A stretch of DNA of 64,000 nucleotides, from positions 620,001-684,000 of the forward strand of contig NZ_AP025018.1 in the NCBI RefSeq assembly GCF_019977735.1. The letters run 5' to 3'. Shown one piece after another: positions 11,323 through 56,020 of the stretch. This DNA comes from Calothrix sp. PCC 7716 (GTDB taxonomy: Bacteria; Cyanobacteriota; Cyanobacteriia; Cyanobacteriales; Nostocaceae). Each line of letters starts with the position of its first letter. The first letter of the stretch is position 1. The position numbers were made by a program, and so were the translations under genes. A model generated the notes under the pieces. The model worked only from the letters and a program-made list of their open reading frames with translations. It had not been told where the DNA came from and searched no databases.

Positions 11323-11376
11323 CATCCCACAAGATAAAATAATCCCACAAGATAAAATAATCCCACAAGATAAAAT
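11323..11376. repeat. Three 18-bp tandem repeats AATCCCACAAGATAAAAT
   Basis: Three head-to-tail copies at 11323, 11341 and 11359 directly follow a GGGCAAGGATGCCC repeat. They look like an expansion of the tail of that repeat, as also seen with a 20-bp unit at 47201-47313. Confidence 0.9.
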
Positions 11377-11402
11377 AAATAGTAATGATTTTTTTGTGGT
11401 GT

Positions 11403-11678: not shown

Positions 11679-11703
11679 ACAAATCAAAATCTAAAAAATA
11701 AGG

Positions 11704-11769
11704 AGTGCTGAGTGCTAAGTGCTGAGTGCTGAGTAAGAAGTTACTACTCAGCACTCAGCACTCATCACT
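11704..11769. repeat. Heptamer-repeat hairpin (GTGCTGA / TCAGCAC arms)
   Basis: Left arm of GTGCTGA-type heptamers, a short AT-rich loop and a right arm of ACTCAGC-type heptamers form a long inverted repeat between thrC and the sulfur-carrier gene. It is a member of the STRR-type family also found at 24543, 26550, 29460, 55467 and 63074, and inside three genes. Confidence 0.9.
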
Positions 11770-14835: not shown

Positions 14836-14863
14836 GTAGAGACGCGACATGTCGCGTCTCTAC
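14836..14863. terminator. 28-bp palindrome GTAGAGACG..CGTCTCTAC after the kinase gene
   Basis: A perfect 28-bp palindrome with inner part CGACATGTCG lies 25 bp after the kinase stop codon. Sister copies at 17056, 48889 and 55662 differ in the inner bases but remain paired, so the hairpin structure looks conserved. A role in ending or protecting transcripts is inferred from position. Confidence 0.6.
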
Positions 14864-17055: not shown

Positions 17056-17083
17056 GTAGAGACGTTACATGTAACGTCTCTAC
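17056..17083. terminator. 28-bp palindrome GTAGAGACG..CGTCTCTAC after the OmpA-domain gene
   Basis: Starts 6 bp after the stop codon at 17050 and ends 6 bp before the stop of the converging moaD gene, so it can act on both transcripts. The inner part TTACATGTAA differs from the other copies but pairs perfectly. Confidence 0.6.
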
Positions 17084-24542: not shown

Positions 24543-24605
24543 AGTGCTGAGTGCTGAGTAAAGAGGAGTTACTACTCAGCACTCAGCACTCAGCACTCAT
24601 CACTC
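24543..24605. repeat. Heptamer-repeat hairpin between menC and fabD
   Basis: GTGCTGAGTGCTGAG left arm, AT-rich loop and CTCAGCACTCAGCACTCAGC right arm. Lies between converging genes menC and fabD and could act as a bidirectional hairpin. Confidence 0.9.
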
Positions 24606-24609
24606 TTTA

Positions 24610-26510: not shown

Positions 26511-26549
26511 TCCTACTCTCCCACGCTTAAAAATAGTTCCGAGTAAAAA

Positions 26550-26621
26550 GTGCTGAGTGCTGAGTAGTATTCCTAACTCCTAACTCTTAACTCAGCACTC
26601 AGCACTCAGCACTCAACACTC
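26550..26621. repeat. Heptamer-repeat hairpin between plsX and fabH
   Basis: GTGCTGAGTGCTGAG arm, a CCTAACTCCTAACTCTTAAC centre and an ACTCAGCACTCAGCACTCAG arm. It interrupts the otherwise compact plsX-fabH-fabD transcript, so it is tolerated in an operon. Confidence 0.9.
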
Positions 26622-26622
26622 T

Positions 26623-28137: not shown

Positions 28138-29460
28138 ATGCTGGAATTAATTGGCTCAGGCTTGTTTTCACTGTGGCTGGAAATAGCAGGGTTACAAGTC
28201 AAGCCTTTAGATGCTTTAGAAGCATTGGCATGGCAAAGTAGCCCAGGTCTGGTTTTAGCCCCTGACCCTAATCCAGCAGGTACTACCACGGTTCAACAAT
28301 ATTTCAAAGACCTGGTGACAGCTAAATTAGTAGCTGGAAACATGATGCAGAGTCAGGGAATTTGGATACAGTCTGGTCCAATTTTAATGGCGAACCATGA
28401 AGGCACAACACCAATACCAGCAGCATCGCTGACAAAAATTGCAACTTCGCTTGTCTCTTTGACAACCTTGGGTGCCGACCATAAATTTCAGACATTGGTT
28501 AGCGCAACAGGACCAATTAAAAATGGGGTGTTAGAAGGAAACTTAGTCATAACAGGTGGTGGAGACCCATTATTTGTAATTCAAGAAGCAGTAACGCTTG
28601 GCAATATGCTTAACCAAATGGGTATTAAGCAAGTTAAGGGTAATTTAATTATTACTGGCAATTTTGCAATGAACTTCCAGCGAAACCCAACACTTGCTGG
28701 ACAATTTCTCAAACAAACACTCAACTCTGCCACTTGGTCGCGTGATATTAAGCTGTATTACTCGACCATGCCCAAGGGCACACCAAAACCCCAATTGACA
28801 ATTACTGGCAAAGTCGAACTAGCAACTCAAACCGTCCCCGAAAGTAATCTACTAATCAGACATTATTCATTACCCCTGGCGCAGCTCATCAATGAGATGA
28901 ACGTATTCAGCAACAATGAAATGGCTGAAATGTTAGCAGAAGCAGTAGGAGGAGCAACAGTAGTCCAGTCAAAAGCAGCCAAACTCGCGCGAGTTCCAGA
29001 ATCAGAAATTCAATTAATCAACGGTTCCGGACTAGGAGTTGAAAATCGTATTTCTCCCCGTGCCGCTTGTGCAATGTTGATGATACTGCAACGTGAAGCA
29101 GTCGCCAACAACATCACACTAGCTGATTTATTCCCTACATCAGGTTTTGACCATCGTGGTACAGTACACGCGCGTCATTTACCTAACGCTACAGTCATGA
29201 AAACAGGGACATTACGTGATGTCAGTGCATTAGCTGGTGTATTTCCAACACGTGACCGTGGTTTAGTTTGGTTTGCCATTATTAACAGAGGACCTTTTGT
29301 TGGCGCCTTTCGTACTGAGCAAGATAAACTTTTACAAAACCTAGTCAAACAACTTCAAGTTCCCGAGTCTGTTCCACCCGCTATTGCCCCCCACGCAGAA
29401 AACAAAGCTTTACCCCAGCTTGGTGAAGCCCAGAGAAACGAAGTAGTCTATAAAGGATAG
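28138..29460 (+). CDS. dacB: D-alanyl-D-alanine carboxypeptidase (PBP4/DacB type)
   Basis: 440-residue class C penicillin-binding protein that trims or cuts peptidoglycan peptides in the periplasm. Active-site motifs: S97-x-x-K100 in 'ASLTK', S258-N-N in 'VFSNNEMAEML' and K355-T-G in 'MKTGTLRD'. Between the first two motifs lies the extra domain usual for PBP4 ('LEGNLVITGGGDPLF'). The N-terminus is hydrophobic ('MLELIGSGLFSLWLEIAG') but is not a textbook signal peptide; a membrane-anchored form is possible. It stands alone, with a heptamer-repeat block after its stop. Confidence 0.88.
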   Translation: MLELIGSGLFSLWLEIAGLQVKPLDALEALAWQSSPGLVLAPDPNPAGTTTVQQYFKDLVTAKLVAGNMMQSQGIWIQSGPILMANHEGTTPIPAASLTKIATSLVSLTTLGADHKFQTLVSATGPIKNGVLEGNLVITGGGDPLFVIQEAVTLGNMLNQMGIKQVKGNLIITGNFAMNFQRNPTLAGQFLKQTLNSATWSRDIKLYYSTMPKGTPKPQLTITGKVELATQTVPESNLLIRHYSLPLAQLINEMNVFSNNEMAEMLAEAVGGATVVQSKAAKLARVPESEIQLINGSGLGVENRISPRAACAMLMILQREAVANNITLADLFPTSGFDHRGTVHARHLPNATVMKTGTLRDVSALAGVFPTRDRGLVWFAIINRGPFVGAFRTEQDKLLQNLVKQLQVPESVPPAIAPHAENKALPQLGEAQRNEVVYKG

Positions 29461-29588
29461 TGCTGAGTTGAAAGTGCTGAGTACTGAGTTGATGTTACTC
29501 AGCACTCAGCACTCAGCACTCAGCACTCAACACTCAACACTCAACACTCAGCACTCAACACTCAACACTCAGCACTCAACACTCATTA
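29460..29588. repeat. Long heptamer-repeat block between dacB and lptC
   Basis: Left arm GTGCTGAG, then an expanded right arm of CTCAGCA/CTCAACA heptamers filling nearly all of the 128-bp gap between the converging genes. The variant heptamer CTCAACA is interspersed. Confidence 0.9.
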
Positions 29589-33176: not shown

Positions 33177-33604
33177 GCAATATTAAAGAGAATTATAACA
33201 GTTTTTATCTTGTGTATGTAGCTAAAACCACGTAATTATAAAACATTTATCACGGATTTACAACCATAAGCTTTATATTAGCAAACTTTAGAGGCGCCTC
33301 TAAATTGATTAAGCAACAAGTTCATATTTGAGATTTATGTAAAAATTTCGCTTTATAGCTTATTTAACGTTTTATTGTTACTGGAGATACAAGAAACCGG
33401 GTTTCTATACGAAATTTTTGTTTTTATTACGATATCTCAACCAAGAAACCGGGTTTCTATACGAAATTTTTGTTTTTATTACAATATCTCAACCAAGAAA
33501 CCCGGTTTCTACAGGTTTCTATCTAAAGGCTATCTAATATTTAGTGAAGAAATGTAAAAATTCAATAACTAGACAGCAACTCGTGTTGATTTTAGTTTTG
33601 ACGC
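33177..33604. other. Intergenic: divergent metG / plsC-like region
   Basis: 428 bp. The metG side is AT-rich with one GGCGCC (about 33293); the middle carries the three-unit palindrome array at 33392-33510. No gene supported. Confidence 0.7.
33392..33510. repeat. Three-unit array of 15-bp palindromes with 37-bp near-identical spacers
   Basis: AGAAACCSGGTTTCT at 33392-33406 (centre G), 33444-33458 (G) and 33496-33510 (C), exactly 52 bp start to start. The two spacers differ at one position (GATATC against AATATC), so the first unit and spacer look like a recent tandem duplication. An extra partial AGGTTTCT follows. Confidence 0.92.
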
Positions 33605-43100: not shown

Positions 43101-43873
43101 AAAAACGGCTAGAAAAACAAGAAATAGACGAAACAAACAAGCGATACATAAATACTATAGTTGACGCAACAGCCCAAGCAGGTAGACTGATTGATGACTT
43201 GTTAGCATTTTCACGCATGGGACGCGCGTCTATGCTATATACAACATTAGATATGAATTTACTCGTGGAAGAAGTCAAGCGAGACTGCCACGATGTAGTA
43301 AAAGATCGCCAGGTTATATGGCATATAGAAACTCTTCCCCAGGTACAAGGCGACCCTTCCATGCTGCGCCTAGTTTTGCGGAATTTGGTAGAAAACGCTT
43401 TAAAATACAGCAAAACTCGTGAAGTGGCATCTGTTACAATTGGCACTCTCAAAGAAGTAGAAAGTGCTGAGTGCTTAGTGCTTAGTGAAAAAGCAGGAAC
43501 TACGGAAGAAAAAGTAAAAAAACAAACTACTACTCTTACTCCATACTCCCTACTCAGCACTCAAAACTCAGCACTCAGCACTCAAAACTCAGCACAGAGT
43601 ACTCAAGAAATAGTATTCTACGTCAAAGATAATGGCATAGGTTTTGACATGCGTTACATACATAAATTATTCGGTGTATTTCAACGCCTGCACACAGACC
43701 CTCGGTTTGAAGGTACAGGAGTTGGGCTAGCAAACGTTCAACGCATTATTCACCGTCATGGTGGACGTGTATGGGCTATTGGCGAAGTTGATATTGGTGC
43801 AACATTTTACTTTTCATTACCTAAGAATAGTGAAGCGTTGCAACCATTAGAAGGGGTCAGGAGTGGAGATTAA
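37127..43873 (+). CDS. Giant membrane histidine kinase with 14 PAS domains
   Basis: 2248 residues. About five membrane helices (residues 25-185) precede an unbroken chain of 14 PAS/PAC units, each ending in a linker such as 'VVTDITETK', 'FVRDITDRK' or 'ILDITDRK'. I count units starting near residues 195, 320, 450, 570, 695, 820, 945, 1075, 1205, 1330, 1460, 1590, 1710 and 1825. Several are recent duplicates: 12 and 13 ('FNVSIDLL..GFDGYFKRINPAF'), 11 and 14, and 4, 5 and 8. A dimerisation helix leads to the phospho-accepting His (about 1975, 'SVSHDLRAPLRH'), then an ATPase domain with the N-box 'RNLVENALKYS', 'DNGIGFD' and 'EGTGVGLANVQRI'. A heptamer-repeat insertion (43463-43605) separates the N-box from DNGIGFD. 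No receiver domain; the partner regulator is the next gene. Signal unknown. Confidence 0.93.
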   Translation: MELHVNKDCINLYSKSVYQGRMGVNTAINWLFISAALWLEKNKKYRDVFICQVCTFIALLICFHALIGYIYGMRVFYLFRAYHTYMTVHTALTFLILCLGILSNNPYRGLMATVTTELNGGVTARRLILAAIFLPTILGWIVIQGEKANYYDFAFGTSLMTVSLIVICLFTIWRNSIYLNNLDKKRGIAEAAVRESEERFRNIAETIEDVFWISEPRNNNLIYVSPAYAKIWGRNIDSLHTNYHEWVDGIHPFDKQRVQNAINQDLYQGTYDIEYRVVRADGTVRWVHDRGFPIDGSSSGRCCGVVTDITETKLAQQELQEREELLRLALELSNAGVYDWSAANNKVKWSPEFYSLFGIDKSVEPSYQHWLESVYSEDRDRIQAEIQTTLQQNGNLDLVYRINHPDGELWINGRGKAYYDEYGEAVRIVGICLDTTQRKRAELELQTSEQRYRSLIELAPDAIFIANQQGQLKDVNNKACELLGYTHAELNSKSITDIIPTEDIPRWKLERECILAGNTYIGESTLIHQDNTRILVEISTKLVAENQCVAFVRDITDRKAMENDLRQNLAILNAINQNTPNLIYVKDRNSNFLMANPATLSVIGKKEAEVLGKNETSFLPSEQALEVLLHDRLVMESGKVYVFEDTVKIPQGTRTFLTTKSAYYDSNNNIIGLIGISVDITNRKEMENQLRQSLAILNTISQSTPTLIYIKDRDGKLLMANPATLEGIGLGEAEVIGKTDLEFLADRNQALMIMENDRSVMENGQIQILEETLQFPKGTCTYISSKSPYYDDNGNITGLIGVSIDITERKQIEAKLAESENLYRTLAEASSQFVWLVNLEGSMEYANSQWRQYTGYQAEDIKYNDWNKVIHPDDLFNVISGWQEQLSTGSNHEFEYRALRSDGTYRWYLARSVPLLDAQGHIIKWVGTATDIHERKVTELALRESQNLLQRALEVTNTFLWERNLSNDEMTYVNAIVDPVFTSVMSFEQALEAVHPEDLESVRATFNCGISTGTVFEVEHRVKLVTPDTNIESAPYRWMMLRGQVKYDDNGKASRITGATLDIHERKIAELARTEAEHALQQSLVILNAINNATGTLIFVKDLQGKFVAANEATLRALGKSEDEVIGRTNFDILTNCNDAAMAVSNDRIVIQTGETHIFEETVLFNSGSRTYIATKSPYRDETGNIIGIIGISTDITERKDMETALAESDKRFRFLAEAIPHLVWQADANGKPLYFNHQWQEYCGVTLDNIEQTIENKWSSIIPSEDLEKTKQHWLECKAKGDIYEAELRIKRSKDGEYRWHLARAVPVHDDAGNVTGWIGTNTDVHDSKTYQAQLIESENRYRQLAENVPQLVWVSDSDGSITYFNQRWVNYTGLELNLYAGWDWRQIVHPDDLPQAMQKWTTAISTGTPMRDVQYRLRRHDGTFRYFLARAVPMYDAENNITKWLGTCTDIDDKVKAEEALRRSEQRLRLFVDSDVIGIVYADFQGEIKEANNAFLKMIGYKKEDIENKTLDWRHLTPKEYLPVDEEGIVEAITKGVCTPYEKEYIRKDGSRIPVLVGFKLVEEQAAVAFILDISSRKRAEEERDKFFNVSIDLLGITGFDGYFKRINPAFTSILGYSETEILTTPFINFIHPNDIAETEREFEKLKNGTTTLHFENRYRCKNGEYRWLMWNVVPDVESGLMYSVAHDLTKRKQAEVERDKFFNVSIDLLCIAGFDGYFKRINPAFVNTLGYSEAELVSTPLLDFIHKDDIAETLGELKNLKDGATILKFENRYRCKNGEYKWLVWNSVPDVEAGLIYAVAHDITERKKTEEALRQSEERLRLFAESDVIGMLYGDTIGSVFQANNAFLDIIGYSREDLEALRVSWVDITPPEYLPLDDAGIAEARTRGSCTPYEKQYIRKDGTRVDVLVGYILYGEDRTQSVAFILDITDRKRADAEVRRLNETLEERVKQRTAQLEAANKELESFSYSVSHDLRAPLRHIAGFVDLLKKRLEKQEIDETNKRYINTIVDATAQAGRLIDDLLAFSRMGRASMLYTTLDMNLLVEEVKRDCHDVVKDRQVIWHIETLPQVQGDPSMLRLVLRNLVENALKYSKTREVASVTIGTLKEVESAECLVLSEKAGTTEEKVKKQTTTLTPYSLLSTQNSALSTQNSAQSTQEIVFYVKDNGIGFDMRYIHKLFGVFQRLHTDPRFEGTGVGLANVQRIIHRHGGRVWAIGEVDIGATFYFSLPKNSEALQPLEGVRSGD
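43463..43605 (+). repeat. Heptamer-repeat hairpin inserted in frame in the kinase ATPase domain
   Basis: The element reads AAAGTGCTGAGTGCTTAGTG (left arm), a unique centre, then CTCAGCACTCAAAACTCAGC (right arm). It adds about 48 residues ('ESAECLVLSEK' to 'LSTQNSALSTQNSAQSTQ') between the N-box and the DNGIGFD loop. Both arms of the intergenic hairpin family are present and stay open because the stop-prone left arm carries substitutions. Confidence 0.92.
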
Positions 43874-44370: not shown

Positions 44371-46410
44371 ATGTCACAGCTAGTGTTTCTCTTGCTTGAA
44401 GATAGCTTGTTAGATGCAGAATTAATCCAAGCGACGCTCGCCGAGGGAGGCATTACCTGCGAACTCATTCAGGTGCAAACAGGTGAGGAGTTTCAAGATA
44501 AACTTAATTCGTCCTGTTATGACTTAATACTTTCTGACTACACAATTCCTGGGTTTGATGGTTTCGCCGCTTTAGAAATAGCACAGCAGCAATGTCCAGA
44601 AGTGCCGTTTATTTTTGTAACGGCGACAATGGGTGAAGAAGTTGCTATCGAAACGCTAAAAAGCGGCGCCACAGATTATGTACTTAAACAGCGTCTAGAT
44701 AGGTTAGTACCATCGATCCGACGTGCCTTGCGCGAAGCAGAAGAAATAAAAGCACGTCAAAAAGCAGAAGCTGAATTACACCGTCGTGAACAAGAATTTC
44801 GCGCGTTAGTAGAAAATTCCCCAGATATCATTGCTCGCTTCGATACAAATTTTCGCACTTTATATATCAGCCCTGCAATCACCCAAATTACAGATTTACT
44901 TCCAGAAAATTTTCTTAATAAAACACCCGAAGAACATAATCTTCCTGAACAACTTTGTCAGCAATGGGTCGAAGAAATTCAAAGTGTCGTTGACTCCTCA
45001 CAAGCAAGGTTTTTTGAAATAGAATATCCTTCAAAAAGTGGTACACGATACCTCGATGTGCGAATGGTACCTGAGTATGGAACTGATGGTTCCATCGAAA
45101 CTATACTAAGTGTTGGTCGTGATATTACTGTAATCAAGCGTGCCGAAATTAAACTACGCGAACAAAAAGCAGAGCTAGAAGAACTCAACCGCGTTAAAGA
45201 TGAATTTTTAGCAGTACTTTCTCACGAACTGCGAAGCCCCCTCAACGCTATTTTAGGATGGTCAAAAATATTACGTGGACGCAGCGTAGATAAAGCAACA
45301 TTAGAGCGCGCGTTAGAAACCATCGAACGCAACGCCAAATTACAAACCCAACTAATCGAAGACTTGCTTGATGTGTCACGCATCATTCGAGGAAAATTAA
45401 GCTTAAAAGCTCATAAAACTAACTTAGTACCAGCTATAGAAGCTGCAATAGATACGATGCGTCTCGCAGCACAAGCAAAATCGATCGATTTTCGATTTTC
45501 GATTTTGGATTTTGCTTCGCACATGAATAAGTTAAGTGGTGAAAATCCAAAATTTGAAGTACTTGGAGACCCCAACCGTTTACAGCAAATAGTTTGGAAT
45601 TTATTATCAAACGCGATTAAATTTACTCCTAACACAGGACGAGTTGAGATCATACTCGAACGAGTTGAACGAACAGACACAACAGATTCAAAAGTTTTGA
45701 CAAACTTTGCCCAAATAACTGTAAAAGATACAGGTATGGGTATTCGCAGTGACTTTATACCTTATGTGTTTGACTCATTTCGACAAGCTGACGGTTCCTC
45801 AACACGAAGATTTGGCGGTTTAGGTTTAGGACTAGCTATTGTGCGTCACCTCGTCGAACTCCACGGTGGTAATGTTTCCGCACAAAGTCCCGGAGAAGGA
45901 AAAGGCGCCACCTTTATTGTACGTATACCGATGGTAGAAAGTAATGAGTTAAAAGTGCTGAGTTCTGAGTTGAAAGAAGTACAAGACCTACTCAGCACGA
46001 CTCACTCAGAACTCAGCACTGAAAACCTAGCTCTTTCAGGAATACGTGTATTAGTAGTAGATGATGATATAGACTCGCGTGACTTTTTAGCATTTGCACT
46101 AGAAGCATCAGGCGCCGAAATAGCATCAGCATCATCAGCAACAGAGGCACTAAATATATTACCAACATTCAACCCAATGGTATTAGTTAGTGACATTGGA
46201 ATGCCAGACCAAGATGGTTATAGTTTAATGCGGCAAATACGCGAACTGCCATATGAAAAAGGAGGCGCCGTTCCAGCAATAGCACTAACAGCATACGCAG
46301 GAGACGCAGACAAAAAAGCAGCACTTGCCGCCGGTTTCCAAACCCATCTACCCAAACCAGTGGCGCCAGACGATATCGTCAACGCAGTATCCGAACTAGT
46401 AAAAACCTAG
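44371..46410 (+). CDS. Hybrid histidine kinase REC-PAS-HisKA-HATPase-REC
   Basis: 679 residues starting 13 bp after the Rcp1-like gene. Domains: receiver 1-125 (phospho-Asp in 'LILSDYTIPGFDG'), PAS about 140-262, phospho-acceptor His in 'LSHELRSPLNAILGW' (about 285-300), ATPase to about 525 with 'WNLLSNAIKFTP', 'DTGMGI' and 'GLGLGLAIVRHLV', then a second receiver (about 555-679, Asp in 'VLVSDIGMPDQDG', 'LPKPVAP'). No DNA-binding output. Two oddities: a GATTTTCGATTTT repeat-derived insertion at about residues 371-393, and a heptamer-repeat insertion in the linker before the final receiver (45954-46020). It completes a three-gene phosphorelay unit with the 14-PAS kinase and the small regulator. 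Confidence 0.93.
   Translation: MSQLVFLLLEDSLLDAELIQATLAEGGITCELIQVQTGEEFQDKLNSSCYDLILSDYTIPGFDGFAALEIAQQQCPEVPFIFVTATMGEEVAIETLKSGATDYVLKQRLDRLVPSIRRALREAEEIKARQKAEAELHRREQEFRALVENSPDIIARFDTNFRTLYISPAITQITDLLPENFLNKTPEEHNLPEQLCQQWVEEIQSVVDSSQARFFEIEYPSKSGTRYLDVRMVPEYGTDGSIETILSVGRDITVIKRAEIKLREQKAELEELNRVKDEFLAVLSHELRSPLNAILGWSKILRGRSVDKATLERALETIERNAKLQTQLIEDLLDVSRIIRGKLSLKAHKTNLVPAIEAAIDTMRLAAQAKSIDFRFSILDFASHMNKLSGENPKFEVLGDPNRLQQIVWNLLSNAIKFTPNTGRVEIILERVERTDTTDSKVLTNFAQITVKDTGMGIRSDFIPYVFDSFRQADGSSTRRFGGLGLGLAIVRHLVELHGGNVSAQSPGEGKGATFIVRIPMVESNELKVLSSELKEVQDLLSTTHSELSTENLALSGIRVLVVDDDIDSRDFLAFALEASGAEIASASSATEALNILPTFNPMVLVSDIGMPDQDGYSLMRQIRELPYEKGGAVPAIALTAYAGDADKKAALAAGFQTHLPKPVAPDDIVNAVSELVKT
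45481..45560 (+). repeat. GATTTTCGATTTTGGATTTT repeat-derived insertion inside the hybrid kinase
   Basis: Tandem CGATTTT units (45481-45512) followed by the inverted AAAATCCAAAATTTG (45541-45555) encode 'RFSILDFASHMNKLSGENPKFEV', an extra loop between the kinase residues 'AQAKSIDF' and 'LGDPNRLQQI' that are adjacent in ordinary relatives. The unit resembles the AGATTTTAGATTTT repeat after the DUF3038 gene (56624-56648). Confidence 0.6.
45954..46020 (+). repeat. Heptamer-repeat hairpin inserted in frame in the hybrid kinase linker
   Basis: AGTGCTGAGTTCTGAG left arm and CTCAGCACGACTCACTCAG with AACTCAGCACT right arm, encoding 'ELKVLSSELKEVQDLLSTTH' and 'SELSTEN' between the ATPase domain and the last receiver domain. 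The position in a flexible linker explains tolerance. Confidence 0.88.
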
Positions 46411-47160: not shown

Positions 47161-47313
47161 CTTGTGGGGTGGGCATCCCTACTAGAACGGGCAAGGATGC
47201 CCATTCCACAAGATAAAAGCTCATTCCACAAGATAAAAGCTCATTCCACAAGATAAAAGCTCATTCCACAAGATAAAAGCTCATTCCACAAGATAAAAGC
47301 TCATTCCACAAAG
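47161..47313. repeat. CTTGTGGGGTGGGCA repeat followed by 20-bp tandem repeats
   Basis: An inverted CTTGTGG / CCACAAG repeat is followed by the 20-bp unit TCATTCCACAAGATAAAAGC at 47201 (variant), 47221, 47241, 47261 and 47281, with a partial sixth copy at 47301. Four consecutive units are identical. It lies about 90 bp upstream of pepA and looks like a slippage expansion; copy number may vary between strains. Confidence 0.95.
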
Positions 47314-47402
47314 AAAAAAACGTTATAACCTCCCCAGGTACAAGCATAAAACCGAAATTTTGAGCAATACTGGTACATGAAAGTTTAAGTTGAGTCCTAA
47401 AA

Positions 47403-50946: not shown

Positions 50947-51270
50947 CTAAAGATATTTTTCGAGAGTGTTAGCTAATGTAGTTTTCGGAACGGCGCCGAC
51001 AACCATATCAACTTTTTGCCCACCTTTAAAAATCATTAAAGTAGGAATGCTGCGAATGCCATATTGACTAGCAACGTTTGGATTCTCATCAGTATTAACT
51101 TTTACTACCTTGAGTTGTCCATCGTACTGAGCGGCAATTTCATCCACAACTGGTCCAACCATGCGGCAAGGACCGCACCAGGGTGCCCAAAAATCAACCA
51201 GAACAGGAACTTCACTGTCGAGAACTTCCTGTTTAAAACTAGAGTCTGTAACTTGTGCGGCTGCTGACAT
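50947..51270 (-). CDS. trxA: Thioredoxin
   Basis: 107-residue classical thioredoxin with the active site C32-G-P-C35 in '[11 protein letters not shown]' and the cis-Pro segment '[13 protein letters not shown]'. It reduces disulfides of many cytosolic targets, including photosynthesis enzymes, using electrons from thioredoxin reductase. Placed downstream of guaB3 with the Yfr1 RNA gene between them, the conserved cyanobacterial order. It ends '[11 protein letters not shown]' as in m-type thioredoxins. Confidence 0.97.
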
Positions 51271-51417: not shown

Positions 51418-51491
51418 AAAAAAGGAACCGCCCGAACATATAGTCCGGGCGGAGTGTGGTGTGAGGAGTGAACGGAAACATGCGTCTCCGC
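51418..51491 (-). ncRNA. yfr1: Yfr1 small regulatory RNA
   Basis: On the minus strand the sequence contains the Yfr1 signature ACTCCTCACAC, unpaired between a 5' stem (CGGAGA pairing with TTTCCG) and a 3' terminator hairpin (CCGCCCG ... CGGGCGG) followed by a U-run at 51423-51418. A TACAAT -10 box lies at 51504-51499, placing the start near 51491 and giving about 74 nt, close to the known size. The location between guaB3 and trxA is the family's known position. Yfr1 is a conserved cyanobacterial sRNA that blocks translation of outer-membrane protein mRNAs through the CU-rich motif. No -35 box was clear. Confidence 0.93.
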
Positions 51492-51562: not shown

Positions 51563-52726
51563 TTACTTGCCCATACCTAATTGCTGTGCTTTTTGGTAAA
51601 CTTTTCCTTCCGTGAGCAATGACGGTGCGATTACGACTTCAACTTGTTGCATTTCTTTAATATTTTTGGCGCCTAAAGTACCCATACTAGTTTTTAAAGC
51701 ACCCAACAAGTTATGTGTTCCATCATCAAGTCCAGCAGGACCAATGAGGATTTGCTCTAAAGTACCAGTGGTAGCCACCTTAATGCGTGTACCACGAGGT
51801 AGAACAGGACTCGGTGTCGCCATTCCCCAATGATAACCTCGTCCCGGCGCCTCGGAAGCCCGCGCAAACGGTGAACCTATCATTACACCATCTGCACCAC
51901 AAGCAATACACTTACAAATGTCACCACCCGTAATTAAGCCCCCATCCGCAATAACTGGTATATATTTACCAGTTTCTTGAAAAAAGTCATCACGTGCAGC
52001 AGCGCAGTCAGCAATAGCGGTAGCTTGAGGCACACCAACACCCAAAACACCTCGCGATGTACAAGCGGCGCCAGGGCCAATACCAACTAGTACACCTGCG
52101 GCGCCAGCTTTCATCAGGTTAAGGGTAACTTCGTAAGTTACACAGTTTCCAAGTAAAACAGGCATTGGCATGTCTTGACAAAAAGTTGCCAAATCAAGTG
52201 GTACTATTGACTCTGGCGATAAGTGAGCGGTTGATACCACCGTTGCTTGTACAAAAAATAAATCGGCGCCAGCTTCTGCCGTGACTTTACCAAACTTACT
52301 GGCGCCTGCTGGAGTAGCACTAACAGCAGCAATACCACCAAGCTGTTTAATTTCCTTAATTCTTTGCGTAATTAATTCAGGTTTTATAGGTTCAGCATAA
52401 AGTTCCTGCATTAGCCCTACAAATTCCGAATTACCAACAGACGCGATGCGGTCTAGAATTGGCTCTGGGTTTTCATAGCGAGTTTGAATACCTTCGAGGT
52501 TAATAACCCCCAAAGCACCCAACTTAGATAAACCAACAGCCATACGCACATCGACAACACCATCCATAGCGCTGGCAATAATGGGAATTTCCCGCTCGAT
52601 ATTACCAATTCGCCACTTGGTATCCGCTAAACTTGGGTCGAGTGTTCGATTGCCTGGGGCTAGAGCAATTTCATCGATGCCATATGCTCTACGAGCTGTT
52701 TTACCCCGCCCTATTTGAATGTCCAC
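51563..52726 (-). CDS. guaB3: GuaB3-type IMP dehydrogenase family protein
   Basis: 387-residue member of the IMPDH/GMP reductase superfamily, the cyanobacterial GuaB3 branch that lacks the CBS domains. Core motifs: 'IIASAMDGVVDV' near the N-terminus, nucleotide and Cys-loop 'GIGPGAACTSRGVLGVG' with the catalytic Cys, then 'VIADGGLITGGDICKCIACG' and 'GADGVMIGSPFA'. GuaB3 proteins have been reported to oxidise IMP to XMP in guanine nucleotide synthesis. It starts the minus-strand group followed by Yfr1 and trxA, and is divergent from mutS2. Confidence 0.93.
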   Translation of the reverse strand: MDIQIGRGKTARRAYGIDEIALAPGNRTLDPSLADTKWRIGNIEREIPIIASAMDGVVDVRMAVGLSKLGALGVINLEGIQTRYENPEPILDRIASVGNSEFVGLMQELYAEPIKPELITQRIKEIKQLGGIAAVSATPAGASKFGKVTAEAGADLFFVQATVVSTAHLSPESIVPLDLATFCQDMPMPVLLGNCVTYEVTLNLMKAGAAGVLVGIGPGAACTSRGVLGVGVPQATAIADCAAARDDFFQETGKYIPVIADGGLITGGDICKCIACGADGVMIGSPFARASEAPGRGYHWGMATPSPVLPRGTRIKVATTGTLEQILIGPAGLDDGTHNLLGALKTSMGTLGAKNIKEMQQVEVVIAPSLLTEGKVYQKAQQLGMGK

Positions 52727-52896: not shown

Positions 52897-55455
52897 TTGA
52901 TTCAGTCTGAAACCCTAGAACTACTCGAATGGTCACGCTTGTGTCAGCATTTGTCAACCTTTGCTGCCACTAAGTTGGGTGCTATTGCATCGCGACATTT
53001 AACAATTCCCACTTCAAAGAACCTGAGCGAAGAACTACTCGCGCAAACCAAAGAAGTTTACGAACTCGAAAGCCGTCTGAATAGTGGATTATCGTTCGAG
53101 GGTATTCAAGATATTGGGGATTCTCTCGAACGCGCACAACTGCAAGGTATTTTAGCTGGTGATGAGTTGCTAGCCATTGCCACAACCCTAAGCGGGGCAC
53201 GTAATTTACGACGTGCTATTGATAACCATGAGGATTTAGCTGTACTAACTAGTTTAGTATCTGAGTTACGAACTTACCCTGAAGTCGAGCAAGAGATTCA
53301 TCGCTGTGTAGATGAACGCGGACAAATTGCCGACCGCGCGAGCCAGAAACTCGGTGATATTCGTGCCGATGTGCGGAAAACACGTAGTCAAATTACTCAA
53401 AAGTTACATAATATTATTCAAGTTAAATCAAGTGCTATTCAAGAAAATATTATTACTCAGCGTGGTGATAGATTTGTAATTCCTGTAAAAGCAACCCATA
53501 AAGACGCAATACCAGGTATCGTACATGACACATCGACGAGTGGTTTAACGTTGTACGTTGAGCCAAACTCAGTTGTGCCAATGGGTAATCAACTGCGTCA
53601 ACTCACCCGTAAAGAAGAAATAGAGGAAGAAGCAATAAGGCGCCAATTAAGCGAGCAAGTAGCAGCTATTTGTCCAGATTTAGAAAAATTGCTGTTAATA
53701 GTCACGACTTTAGATTTAGCAACAGCAAAAGCGCGTTATGGTTATTGGCTCAAAGCAAACCCACCTCGCTTTATCAATACTCAAGCCAACGAAAAAATAA
53801 CCCTCAGACAATTACGGCACCCTTTATTAGAATGGCAGCACCATCACGAACAAGGACATGCTGTAATTCCGGTAGATTTATTGGTACAACCAGAAACTCG
53901 CGTTGTCACCATTACAGGCCCCAACACAGGTGGAAAAACAGTCACCTTAAAAACTCTGGCACTAGCAGCGTTAATGGCAAAAGCTGGAATGTTTGTACCT
54001 GCACGTGAACCTGTAGAGTTACCTTGGTTCGACATGATATTAGCTGATATTGGTGACGAGCAATCATTACAGCAAAGCTTATCAACGTTTTCAGGACACA
54101 TTCGCCGCATTAGTCGAATTTTAAACGAACTCAATAAGAATAGTGCTGAGTTGAAAGTGCTGAGTGCTGAGAATAGTGCTGAGGAAAAAGTGCTAAGTGC
54201 TGAGAATGAAGAAAACTCCTCACTCTTAACTCCTCACTCCTCACTCCTAACTCCTCACTCCTCACTCAGCACTCAGCACTCATCACTCAGCACTCAGCAC
54301 TCATCACTCAGCACTCAGCACTCATCACTTATTCTTTTAGATGAAGTTGGCGCCGGAACTGACCCAGCAGAAGGAAGTGCTTTAGCGATAGCATTACTAA
54401 AGTATCTTGCCGACCATGCATTACTAACAATGGCAAGCACACACTTTGGTGAACTCAAAGCATTAAAGTATCAAGATGAACGTTTTGAAAATGCTTCTGT
54501 AGAATTTGATGATGCCACACTGTCACCTACATATCGTTTATTATGGGGAATTCCTGGACGTTCTAACGCACTTGCGATTGCGCGTCGTTTAGGCTTAAAC
54601 CCTGAAGTTGTAGAAGCAGCAAAGCAAGAAATGGGAGGTGCGAACGACGAAGTGAACTCAGTAATTGCTGGGTTAGAAGCACAACGTCGGCGCCAAGAAA
54701 CTAAAGCTGCTGAAGCTCAAAAGTTATTACAACAAGCAGAGGTTTTATACAAACAAGTATCCGAAAAAGCCACATCTTTAGAAGAACGTGAACAATCATT
54801 AAAAGAAAAGCAAGAAGTAGCAGTACAACAAGCTATAGCGAGCGCAAAAGGTGAAATTGCTACCGTTATTAGGCGCCTGCAAAAAGGAACAGCAACCGCA
54901 CAAGAAGCGCAAATTGCTACAAATAATTTAAATCAAATTGCTGAGAAATTTACAACACCCCAACAGCAAAAACCAAAAGTTGGGTTTATGCCAAAAGTTG
55001 GCGACCGCATTCGTATATCCAAATTAGGACAAACAGCCGAAGTCATAACGGCGCCCGACTCAGACGGCGAATTAAACGTCCGCTTTGGCATTATGAAAAT
55101 GAACGTCAAACTAACAGATATCGAGTCTCTCGACGGTCAAAAAGTCGAACCACCACCTTTAAAACAAACCCGTAACACACCACAAAACAACGTCACCCCA
55201 CCCCCAGAAGCTCCAAATATCCGCACCTCCAAAAATACCTTTGACATACGTGGTAAAAGGGTAGCTGATGCTGAAATAGTTTTAGATAAAGCAATTTCAG
55301 AAGCATCAGGACCAATATGGATTATCCACGGACACGGTACAGGTAAACTTCGTGAAGGAGTTCATGCATACCTAAAACAACACTCAAGAGTTAAACGTAT
55401 GGAACCCGCAGCACAAGCGGATGGTGGTAGCGGTGTAACTATTGCCTATGTTTAG
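52897..55455 (+). CDS. mutS2: Endonuclease MutS2 with heptamer-repeat insertion
   Basis: 852 residues from a TTG at 52897 ('MIQSETLELLEWSRLCQHLS', the usual MutS2 beginning). Clamp and lever region follow, then the ATPase: Walker A 'TGPNTGGKTVTLKTLAL' (about 340-355), 'STFSGHIRRISRIL' and Walker B 'LILLDEVGAGTDPAEGSAL' (about 478-496). A coiled region and the C-terminal Smr nuclease domain ('FDIRGKRVADAEIVLDKAIS', 'IIHGHGTGKLREGV') complete it. About 63 residues (414-477) between the conserved 'LNEL' helix and Walker B come from a repeat insertion. MutS2 acts on branched DNA and stalled ribosomes. Otherwise intact. Confidence 0.95.
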   Translation: MIQSETLELLEWSRLCQHLSTFAATKLGAIASRHLTIPTSKNLSEELLAQTKEVYELESRLNSGLSFEGIQDIGDSLERAQLQGILAGDELLAIATTLSGARNLRRAIDNHEDLAVLTSLVSELRTYPEVEQEIHRCVDERGQIADRASQKLGDIRADVRKTRSQITQKLHNIIQVKSSAIQENIITQRGDRFVIPVKATHKDAIPGIVHDTSTSGLTLYVEPNSVVPMGNQLRQLTRKEEIEEEAIRRQLSEQVAAICPDLEKLLLIVTTLDLATAKARYGYWLKANPPRFINTQANEKITLRQLRHPLLEWQHHHEQGHAVIPVDLLVQPETRVVTITGPNTGGKTVTLKTLALAALMAKAGMFVPAREPVELPWFDMILADIGDEQSLQQSLSTFSGHIRRISRILNELNKNSAELKVLSAENSAEEKVLSAENEENSSLLTPHSSLLTPHSSLSTQHSSLSTQHSSLSTQHSSLILLDEVGAGTDPAEGSALAIALLKYLADHALLTMASTHFGELKALKYQDERFENASVEFDDATLSPTYRLLWGIPGRSNALAIARRLGLNPEVVEAAKQEMGGANDEVNSVIAGLEAQRRRQETKAAEAQKLLQQAEVLYKQVSEKATSLEEREQSLKEKQEVAVQQAIASAKGEIATVIRRLQKGTATAQEAQIATNNLNQIAEKFTTPQQQKPKVGFMPKVGDRIRISKLGQTAEVITAPDSDGELNVRFGIMKMNVKLTDIESLDGQKVEPPPLKQTRNTPQNNVTPPPEAPNIRTSKNTFDIRGKRVADAEIVLDKAISEASGPIWIIHGHGTGKLREGVHAYLKQHSRVKRMEPAAQADGGSGVTIAYV
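54142..54330 (+). repeat. Heptamer-repeat hairpin inserted in frame in mutS2
   Basis: Left arm AGTGCTGAGTTGAAAGTGCT repeated with variants, a CTCACTCCTAACTCCTCACT centre, then a right arm with CTCAGCACTCAGCACTCATC units. The centre and right arm encode a seven-residue periodic peptide ('SSLSTQH' repeated). The element is 189 bp, a multiple of three, and sits just before the Walker B strand. Confidence 0.93.
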
Positions 55456-55466
55456 AAGAGTAAAAA

Positions 55467-55593
55467 GTGCTGAGTGCTGAGTATTAACTCCTAACTCCTA
55501 ACTCCTAACTCCTAACTCCTAACTCCTAACTCCTAACTCCTAACTCCTAACTCCTAACTTTACTCAGCACTCAGCACTTTCCACTAAGCACTC
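55467..55593. repeat. Heptamer-repeat hairpin with CCTAACT tandem core after mutS2
   Basis: GTGCTGAGTGCTGAG arm, then about ten CCTAACT heptamers (55484-55559) and a CTCAGCACTCAGCAC arm. The same element type as the insertion inside the mutS2 gene just upstream, so this gene has one copy inside and one after its end. Confidence 0.93.
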
Positions 55594-56020
55594 TTTTGAG
55601 GGTTTGATGACAAAAAATATTTCCGAAAGGGATTGTCAAAAGTAACATTTTTTGCATACTTGTAGAGACGCGACATGTCGCGTCTCTACATATGTTCAAC
55701 AATAAAAAAATCTTGGCTGTTCGTTGCTAACACATTAAAATCAGGCGTTAAGGTAGTAGGTAATTTGATACCTACGTGGCGGCATTTGCTTATACTAAGC
55801 ATAGGGTCTTACCTATTCCACTTTCTGTAAAGACAGGATAAATATTTTCTTCGTTTGCTTTTACAGACTCGCTTGTTCGTCTTAGAGTTAAGACATTCAT
55901 ATAAACGCTGTTGTCCTCGAAGTCCCGGCGACACATTATAGTAAAGGAAACCAATCCTTCGGCTATCAAGTCTGGTTTCAAAATGGGTAACAGCAATAGT
56001 TCCATAAAGCCCGATCACCT
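55594..56020. other. Intergenic between mutS2 and the DUF3038 gene
   Basis: About 430 bp. It contains the 28-bp palindrome (55662-55689) and a short inverted repeat GTAGGTA/TACCTAC (about 55755-55775). Minus-strand open frames here are short and featureless. The rest probably holds the DUF3038/DUF4335 promoter. Confidence 0.6.
55662..55689. repeat. 28-bp palindrome GTAGAGACG..CGTCTCTAC
   Basis: Identical to the copy at 14836-14863 with inner part CGACATGTCG, 207 bp after mutS2. Fourth member of the family in the window. Confidence 0.85.

Follow-up and report, generated by a model that had tools for sequence, protein, structure and literature searches.

In-frame hairpin repeats at a variable loop beside the Walker B motif of cyanobacterial MutS2

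How does a repeat of the kind that multiplies between genes come to be read as protein next to the ATPase motif of a conserved enzyme, and is such a case an oddity of one strain or a property of the site? The question is raised by the mutS2 gene of Calothrix sp. PCC 7716, in a 64,000-nucleotide stretch of its 12.4-Mb genome (G000) that we refer to as the window. The ORF at 52897..55455 (+; 852 aa, TTG start as listed) belongs to the endonuclease MutS2 family: it scores 888 bits against TIGR01069, above the curated cut-off of 400, and carries MutS_V, Smr, and MSSS domains. The sequence ITGPNTGGKT at 53911..53940 (+; invariant columns I339–T348) is Walker A, and LILLDE at 54328..54345 (+) is Walker B. 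Directly 5′ of the latter, at 54142..54330 (+), lies an element that an earlier note had described as a heptamer hairpin in frame within mutS2, and the description stands: the frame is open throughout, with no stop.

The element has three parts, all read on the forward strand. The left arm (54142..54207) consists of two 33-nt units of the form AGTGCTGAG-NNN-AAAGTGCTRAGTGCTGAG-AAT, encoding the peptide SAExKVLSAEN; the centre (54208..54264) is made of heptamers of the TCCTCAC/TCCTAAC type; and the right arm (54265..54330) of CTCAGCA/CTCATCA heptamers, which pair with the left arm and encode SSLSTQH. The whole is translated as NSAELKVLSAENSAEEKVLSAENEENSSLLTPH...SSLSTQHSS, immediately ahead of LILLDEVGAGTDP. 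With arms that are 87% complementary over 30 nt, it is a long imperfect hairpin with a computed RNA fold of −79.5 kcal/mol (z −8.0 versus shuffles); for the window's MutS2 loop, comparison with recodings that preserve the protein gives z −9.1. This loop has 68 residues versus 7 in the shortest cyanobacterial loops, or about 61 extra, slightly below the figure of about 63 first given. A scan limited to hairpin loops of 3–8 nt found no transcription terminator within the insert. The insert matches no known RNA at gathering scores (sub-threshold matches only), and nothing in plasmid and phage collections.

The arithmetic proposed for a 7-bp unit is right on both strands. Whichever of the three frames is used, the TCAGCAC strand gives a single stop-free peptide of seven residues, and the GTGCTGA strand runs into TGA every 21 nt. 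The left arm avoids these stops in that no heptamer run in it exceeds two units and the linkers between runs are in phase; the surviving MutS2 copies consist of one- or two-heptamer blocks connected in this way. That nine of nine in-gene elements are open is uninformative alone, because a position inside an ORF already implies an open frame. The extragenic copies are the informative ones: of the 15 that have both arms, 14 lack an open frame in any of the six, so random insertion would nearly always truncate a protein. The sole open-frame copy among the 15, at 29458..29586, runs from the 3′ end of ORF 28138–29460. A hairpin just 3′ of mutS2 (55464..55595) is closed in six frames, and others lie between listed ORFs at 11703..11763, 24543..24606, and 26549..26622.

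Among the matches listed, the best other copy in the genome is 83% identical over 189 nt (G000:C1:5097500), which bears out the likeness in design to the intergenic hairpins; a repeat of intergenic type is indeed read as protein in a conserved enzyme. The seven genomes of the genus (G000 to G006, with mates of G000 that include Dulcicalothrix desertica PCC 7102, Calothrix PCC 7103, and Calothrix NIES-4105) each hold from at least 39 to at least 112 matches to the heptamer element. Counts of GTGCTGAG-(5-35)-CTCAGCAC, overlapping matches included, are 238 in G000, 160 in G002, 120 in G003, 66 in G004, 31 in G006, 10 in G005, and 0 in G001, from which the strict short-centre hairpin pattern is absent. 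The reverse order at 5–35 spacing occurs 0 times in the seven genomes, and spacings up to 250 nt add a single reverse-order step (in L162). This near-absolute, genus-wide polarity of the hairpin (GTGCTGAG left, CTCAGCAC right) is not explained by simple tandem slippage.

MutS2 is one of at least ten G000 proteins that carry the heptamer repeat in frame, so the insert is not the isolated event that it had seemed: at least nine other proteins share the repeat. Three of the ten are in the window, the other two being kinases. A 2248-aa PAS histidine kinase has its element at 43464..43606 (+), adjoining the HATPase_c match, and a 679-aa hybrid kinase at 45954..46020 (+), in the linker between HATPase_c and receiver. 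Among 11 further G000 loci, chosen for long open frames, seven have the repeat inside the protein: an M16 peptidase, a P-type ATPase, three kinase/receiver proteins, CheB, and a protein with a Pfam match to SMC_N that we take to be RecF-like. At the other four (L142, L147, L148, and L150) the repeat sits at the very N-terminus, perhaps beyond the limits of the gene.

The window holds several other repeats and features. Direct repeats at 47199–47318 (20 bp, about 5.5 copies) and 11324–11378 (18 bp, 3 copies) have the common core CCACAAGATAAAA, and one of these two arrays, upstream of ORF 47403, is possibly regulatory or iteron-like. A 52-bp unit that includes AGAAACCGGGTTTCT is repeated 2.4 times at 33389–33511. 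The cyanobacterial sRNA Yfr1 (Rfam RF01116, 61 bits) is found at 51426–51491 (−), between ORFs 50947–51270 and 51563–52726.

Within the genus, the MutS2 loop is occupied by different repeats. G000, with its heptamer hairpin, is sister to G003 (support 95/99), whose loop holds the 28-bp palindrome GTAGAGACG...CGTCTCTAC. The same palindrome occupies the loop of G006, and a copy split by an insertion that of G004. The window itself has a perfect copy 3′ of mutS2 (55662..55689) and further copies at 14836..14863 and 17056..17083. Sites for the palindrome number 19–241 in each of the seven genomes (reversed control, 0); both families are found in all seven and are multicopy in G000 and G003 alike. 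With its GTAG end, its 28-bp palindrome, and 128–241 pattern sites per genome, the occupant of G003, G004, and G006 has the make-up of a GTAG-tagged REP; the window's element, which begins AGTGCTGAG and spans 189 bp, does not. G002 has its own in-frame heptamer hairpin, and the other five genomes have other in-frame occupants. G001 has degraded stretches that recall each of the two families (matches at 22/29 and 22/30 positions; the best elsewhere in the locus is 16). A by-eye comparison of the G003 and G006 palindromes finds six positions, or three complete base pairs, that differ, with both still perfect; on the face of these sequences, the paired changes suggest replacement by another copy and not constraint at the protein level.

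G000 has 16 matches to PF01797 (Y1). In nine stretches holding ten of these, none of the Y1 transposases was flanked by a pair of palindromes, and two had one copy each, about 0.8 and 1.3 kb off; a transposase with the repeats at its ends was thus not seen there.

We then define the loop as the segment from the STFxxH helix to Walker B across a wider set of 139 loci, of which 13 are duplicates and one (L138, from a genome, G040, with an 827-aa open frame) has no match to the motif, leaving 125 distinct loops. The sample is non-random (60 relatives plus the best 80 named matches), and its named loci are without Gloeobacter, Prochlorococcus, or named Synechococcus, so it speaks for many cyanobacterial lineages and not for the whole phylum. 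Loop length ranges from 7 to 122 residues, and all 125 loops are free of stops. The 95 full-length MutS2 proteins (30 of the 125 are cut by locus ends and were excluded) place the greatest variability at this one site, where added length has a standard deviation of 20.4 and a maximum of 92 aa, against a standard deviation of 5.2 at the second most variable site. Smaller inserts occur at residues 298 and 757–766. The loop is free of any insert in the four structurally solved MutS2 chains that were aligned. The insert is therefore no one-strain oddity, as it had been treated: the site is hypervariable, and relatives hold unrelated repeats there. The earlier note had set the presence of one insert in most cyanobacterial MutS2 proteins against its reading; this holds by half, in that most of the loops sampled are extended here but with sequences that differ. 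Splicing, bypass, or intein-like removal of the loop is not favoured, given that the frame is kept stop-free in every case. Genome size was considered as a driver of loop length, and the correlation is weak (rho 0.29, p 0.03, 58 genomes; rho 0.27, p 0.055 when the genus is left out). One MutS2 match, at G012:C1:3153041-3154220, is broken into two segments, with an in-frame TAG in the final one, and may be a pseudogene or a sequence error.

Longer loops (60 nt or more; n = 79) were compared with 237 control windows. Period-7 arrays are present in 24 of the 79 versus none of the 237, and lag-7 identity is 0.42 versus 0.226. The heptamers vary by lineage (ACTCAGC, AATCCCC, AATTCCC, AATGCCC, and others). 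The remaining 55 longer loops have no period-7 array, and they, like the 56 of 79 in which no hairpin is strong (z above −2), may be ordinary low-complexity sequence. On a FastTree phylogeny of the 95 MutS2 proteins with the loop removed, which has some long branches and some open forks, the minimum number of changes is 14 for period-7 arrays (17 of 95 rows) and 17 for a loop length of at least 25 aa (62 of 95); these are raw counts, which do not separate gain from loss.

The paralogue MutS1 behaves differently. A search of 60 genomes gave a match in 58 (none in G007 or G013), and 58 of 58 have no net length change over the homologous loop, at exactly three nucleotides per residue: 55 spans are of 549 nt/183 residues, and the others are 546/182 (G047), 531/177 with one stop (G045), and 351/117, cut after the loop (G057). 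Other proteins of the genus do behave as MutS2 does. The M16 peptidase loop, seen in four of the seven genomes, has heptamer arms in G000 and G004; in G003 and G005 the GTAG palindrome comes after a left arm of heptamers. The P-type ATPase loop, seen in all seven, has heptamers in G000, G005, and G006, the palindrome in G003 and G004, and neither in G001 and G002. These two loops exchange the heptamer and palindrome families just as the MutS2 loop does; the RecF-like loop (three of seven) has heptamers in varying number.

The reading that best accounts for these observations, to which we give a probability of roughly 77%, is that a permissive loop of MutS2 repeatedly takes in hairpin repeats that are filtered for frame. 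The permissive site would be the segment of cyanobacterial MutS2 that joins the helix following STFSGH to the strand bearing Walker B, a loop that we infer to be surface-exposed and flexible. Small hairpin-forming repeats that multiply between genes would land in this loop or be copied into it; those that leave the reading frame intact and bring in no stop would survive and be translated as a low-complexity loop, Glu/Gly/Asp-rich in its first half and Pro/Ser/Leu-rich in its second, with the peptide presumably made and harmless. Such copies could later shift in unit number, decay, or give way to another repeat family, and the window's heptamer hairpin would simply be the present occupant. The route of entry is likewise conjectural: viewed as a possible MITE, the element has inverted arms, no target-site duplication is evident by eye, and insertion as a mobile element is accordingly not proven.

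The strongest competitor, to which we assign perhaps one chance in five, is that no intergenic element is inserted and the repeats are generated on the spot, as slippage and template switching act on a skewed loop. In its favour, near-identical MutS2 proteins of Moorena differ partly by in-frame 15-nt units, and the number of 33-nt units is unequal between the loops of G000 and G002. It has difficulty, however, with the genus palindrome and the heptamer design, both of which have multicopy counterparts at other places in the genomes concerned, and with the loop of G016. Own-genome searches of longer loops outside the genus covered two, those of G016 and G021. Part of the former has about 40 other matches in its own genome, including copies of a 54-bp stretch that are 98%–100% identical, and part of the latter has fifteen. 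More broadly, the 358 kb of flanking DNA contains 4.5% of loop 14-mers versus 0.47% of control 14-mers, about a tenfold difference to which two Moorena loops supply 202 of the 448 shared 14-mers; counted by loop, 39 of 79 share at least one versus 76 of 237 controls, a modest contrast. In-place slippage and recombination could account for part of the variation. The four Moorena loci (L064, L069, L105, and L109) have loops of 50–108 aa, and their number of 15-nt units offers a possible strain marker.

It is less likely still, at long odds, that the loop is adaptive, an acidic and then Ser/Pro segment that tunes the ATPase rate or partner binding, with the repeats as raw material. The existence of one dominant variable site in MutS2 and the two-part composition of the loop would fit: the first half is purine-richer in 71 of the 79 longer loops, and in 49 of the 55 without period-7 arrays. 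Hairpins with a purine-rich left arm would give the same polarity, however, and the genus heptamers and extragenic hairpins lean this way. Among hairpins outside mutS2, G exceeds C in the left arm in 59 of 97 and C exceeds G in 19; of ten with a 7-nt tandem, six are purine-left and four are not. The purine-left, pyrimidine-right polarity matches the genus elements and the extragenic lean, and so does not need selection on the protein. The sequence and length of the loop are, moreover, unconserved even among nearest relatives.

Two further proposals we consider improbable. In the first, the Walker B loop is a long-lived harbour whose hairpin, or whose acidic/Ser-Pro peptide, tunes the amount or activity of MutS2, so that the repeats are kept; if this were true, genomic repeat load would act back on a protein engaged with recombination intermediates and with stalled ribosomes. 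In the second, marginally the weaker, a hairpin in the mutS2 message delays ribosomes immediately ahead of the Walker B codons, which lets MutS2 sense its own synthesis or hold it down. MutS2 of B. subtilis splits stalled ribosomes, for which Walker B is required, according to the portion of PMC10897456 available. Strong hairpins do lie at this one mRNA position, with z of −2 or below versus synonymous recodings in 23 of 79 longer loops, versus 4.6% of 1,002 control windows, and different sequences have a similar arm-centre-arm design. Against this, many loops are too short for a sizeable hairpin and 56 of the 79 longer ones have z above −2, and the short hairpin-free loops argue against autoregulation as a general function; the heptamer repeats also occur in kinases, CheB, a P-type ATPase, and a peptidase, where the logic fails. 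Under repeated uptake into a permissive loop, a minority with hairpin strength beyond coding is what recent insertion would leave. Tandem repeats are error-prone in sequencing and assembly, and yet an artefact is very improbable, given the open frame, the comparable in-frame hairpin of G002, and the other in-frame occupants of five other genomes. Any function of the loop beyond that of a tolerated sink is hypothetical.

STRR are heptanucleotide tandem repeats of heterocyst-forming cyanobacteria. The window's element, a period-7 tandem whose nearest named relatives are Calothrix and Dulcicalothrix (Nostocales, which we assume to form heterocysts), fits this class in its 7-nt unit, its many copies, and its mostly intergenic location. 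It differs from STRR and from the Nostoc heptamers in that its arms are opposed around a centre with near-strict polarity and are translated as protein. The accessible part of PMC4692102 describes GGGGATT heptamer repeats of Nostoc, with few paired repeats in Nostoc PCC 7120.

The element also has the features of protein-coding palindromic repeats, being multicopy, hairpin-forming, and found both between genes and in frame in conserved proteins. In this it resembles the RPE of Rickettsia, multicopy palindromic repeats that, in the available part of PMC3733652 (Di Nocera 2013), are in frame in likely functional proteins; phylum and sequence families differ, and here several unrelated families re-occupy one loop in many lineages. 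The same source, to the extent available, reports intragenic GTAG/CGTC REPs, many in replication and repair genes, notably UvrABCD and RecBCD, and proposes that they could alter repair; it does not there describe re-occupation of one site, and its main text has no word beginning with "muts". The occupant of G003, G004, and G006 is like these REPs in its GTAG start, palindromic form, and multiple copies, whereas the window's heptamer element lacks the GTAG start; the repair proteins affected by repeats in our case are MutS2 and a RecF-like protein. The enterobacterial RU-1 to RU-3, as described in part of PMC2759123, are intergenic, MITE-like repeats that some annotated genes retain as peptide; compared by that description, they share this fate with ours but belong to other organisms and to several different proteins. 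Coding repeats of other systems appear in an excerpt of PMC6649704. The available portions of PMC12292046 and PMC5101192 treat MutS2 or mutS2 with no mention of the Walker B loop, and the partial lists from our literature search held no title on repeats in MutS2, from which we claim no absence from print. In-frame palindromes are therefore already known, as RPE and intragenic REPs, and a re-occupied MutS2 site was not found in the partial literature examined.

If the preferred reading is right, the loop is a natural repeated experiment in the conversion of non-coding repeats into protein, run at one position in many lineages with several repeat families, and with nearest relatives that hold different occupants and a MutS1 paralogue of unchanged length as a control. 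It marks a probably permissive site beside an ATPase motif and provides a fast strain marker. MutS2 and the RecF-like protein join the repair proteins known to carry such repeats, and whether coding repeats are harmful, neutral, or of use becomes directly testable.
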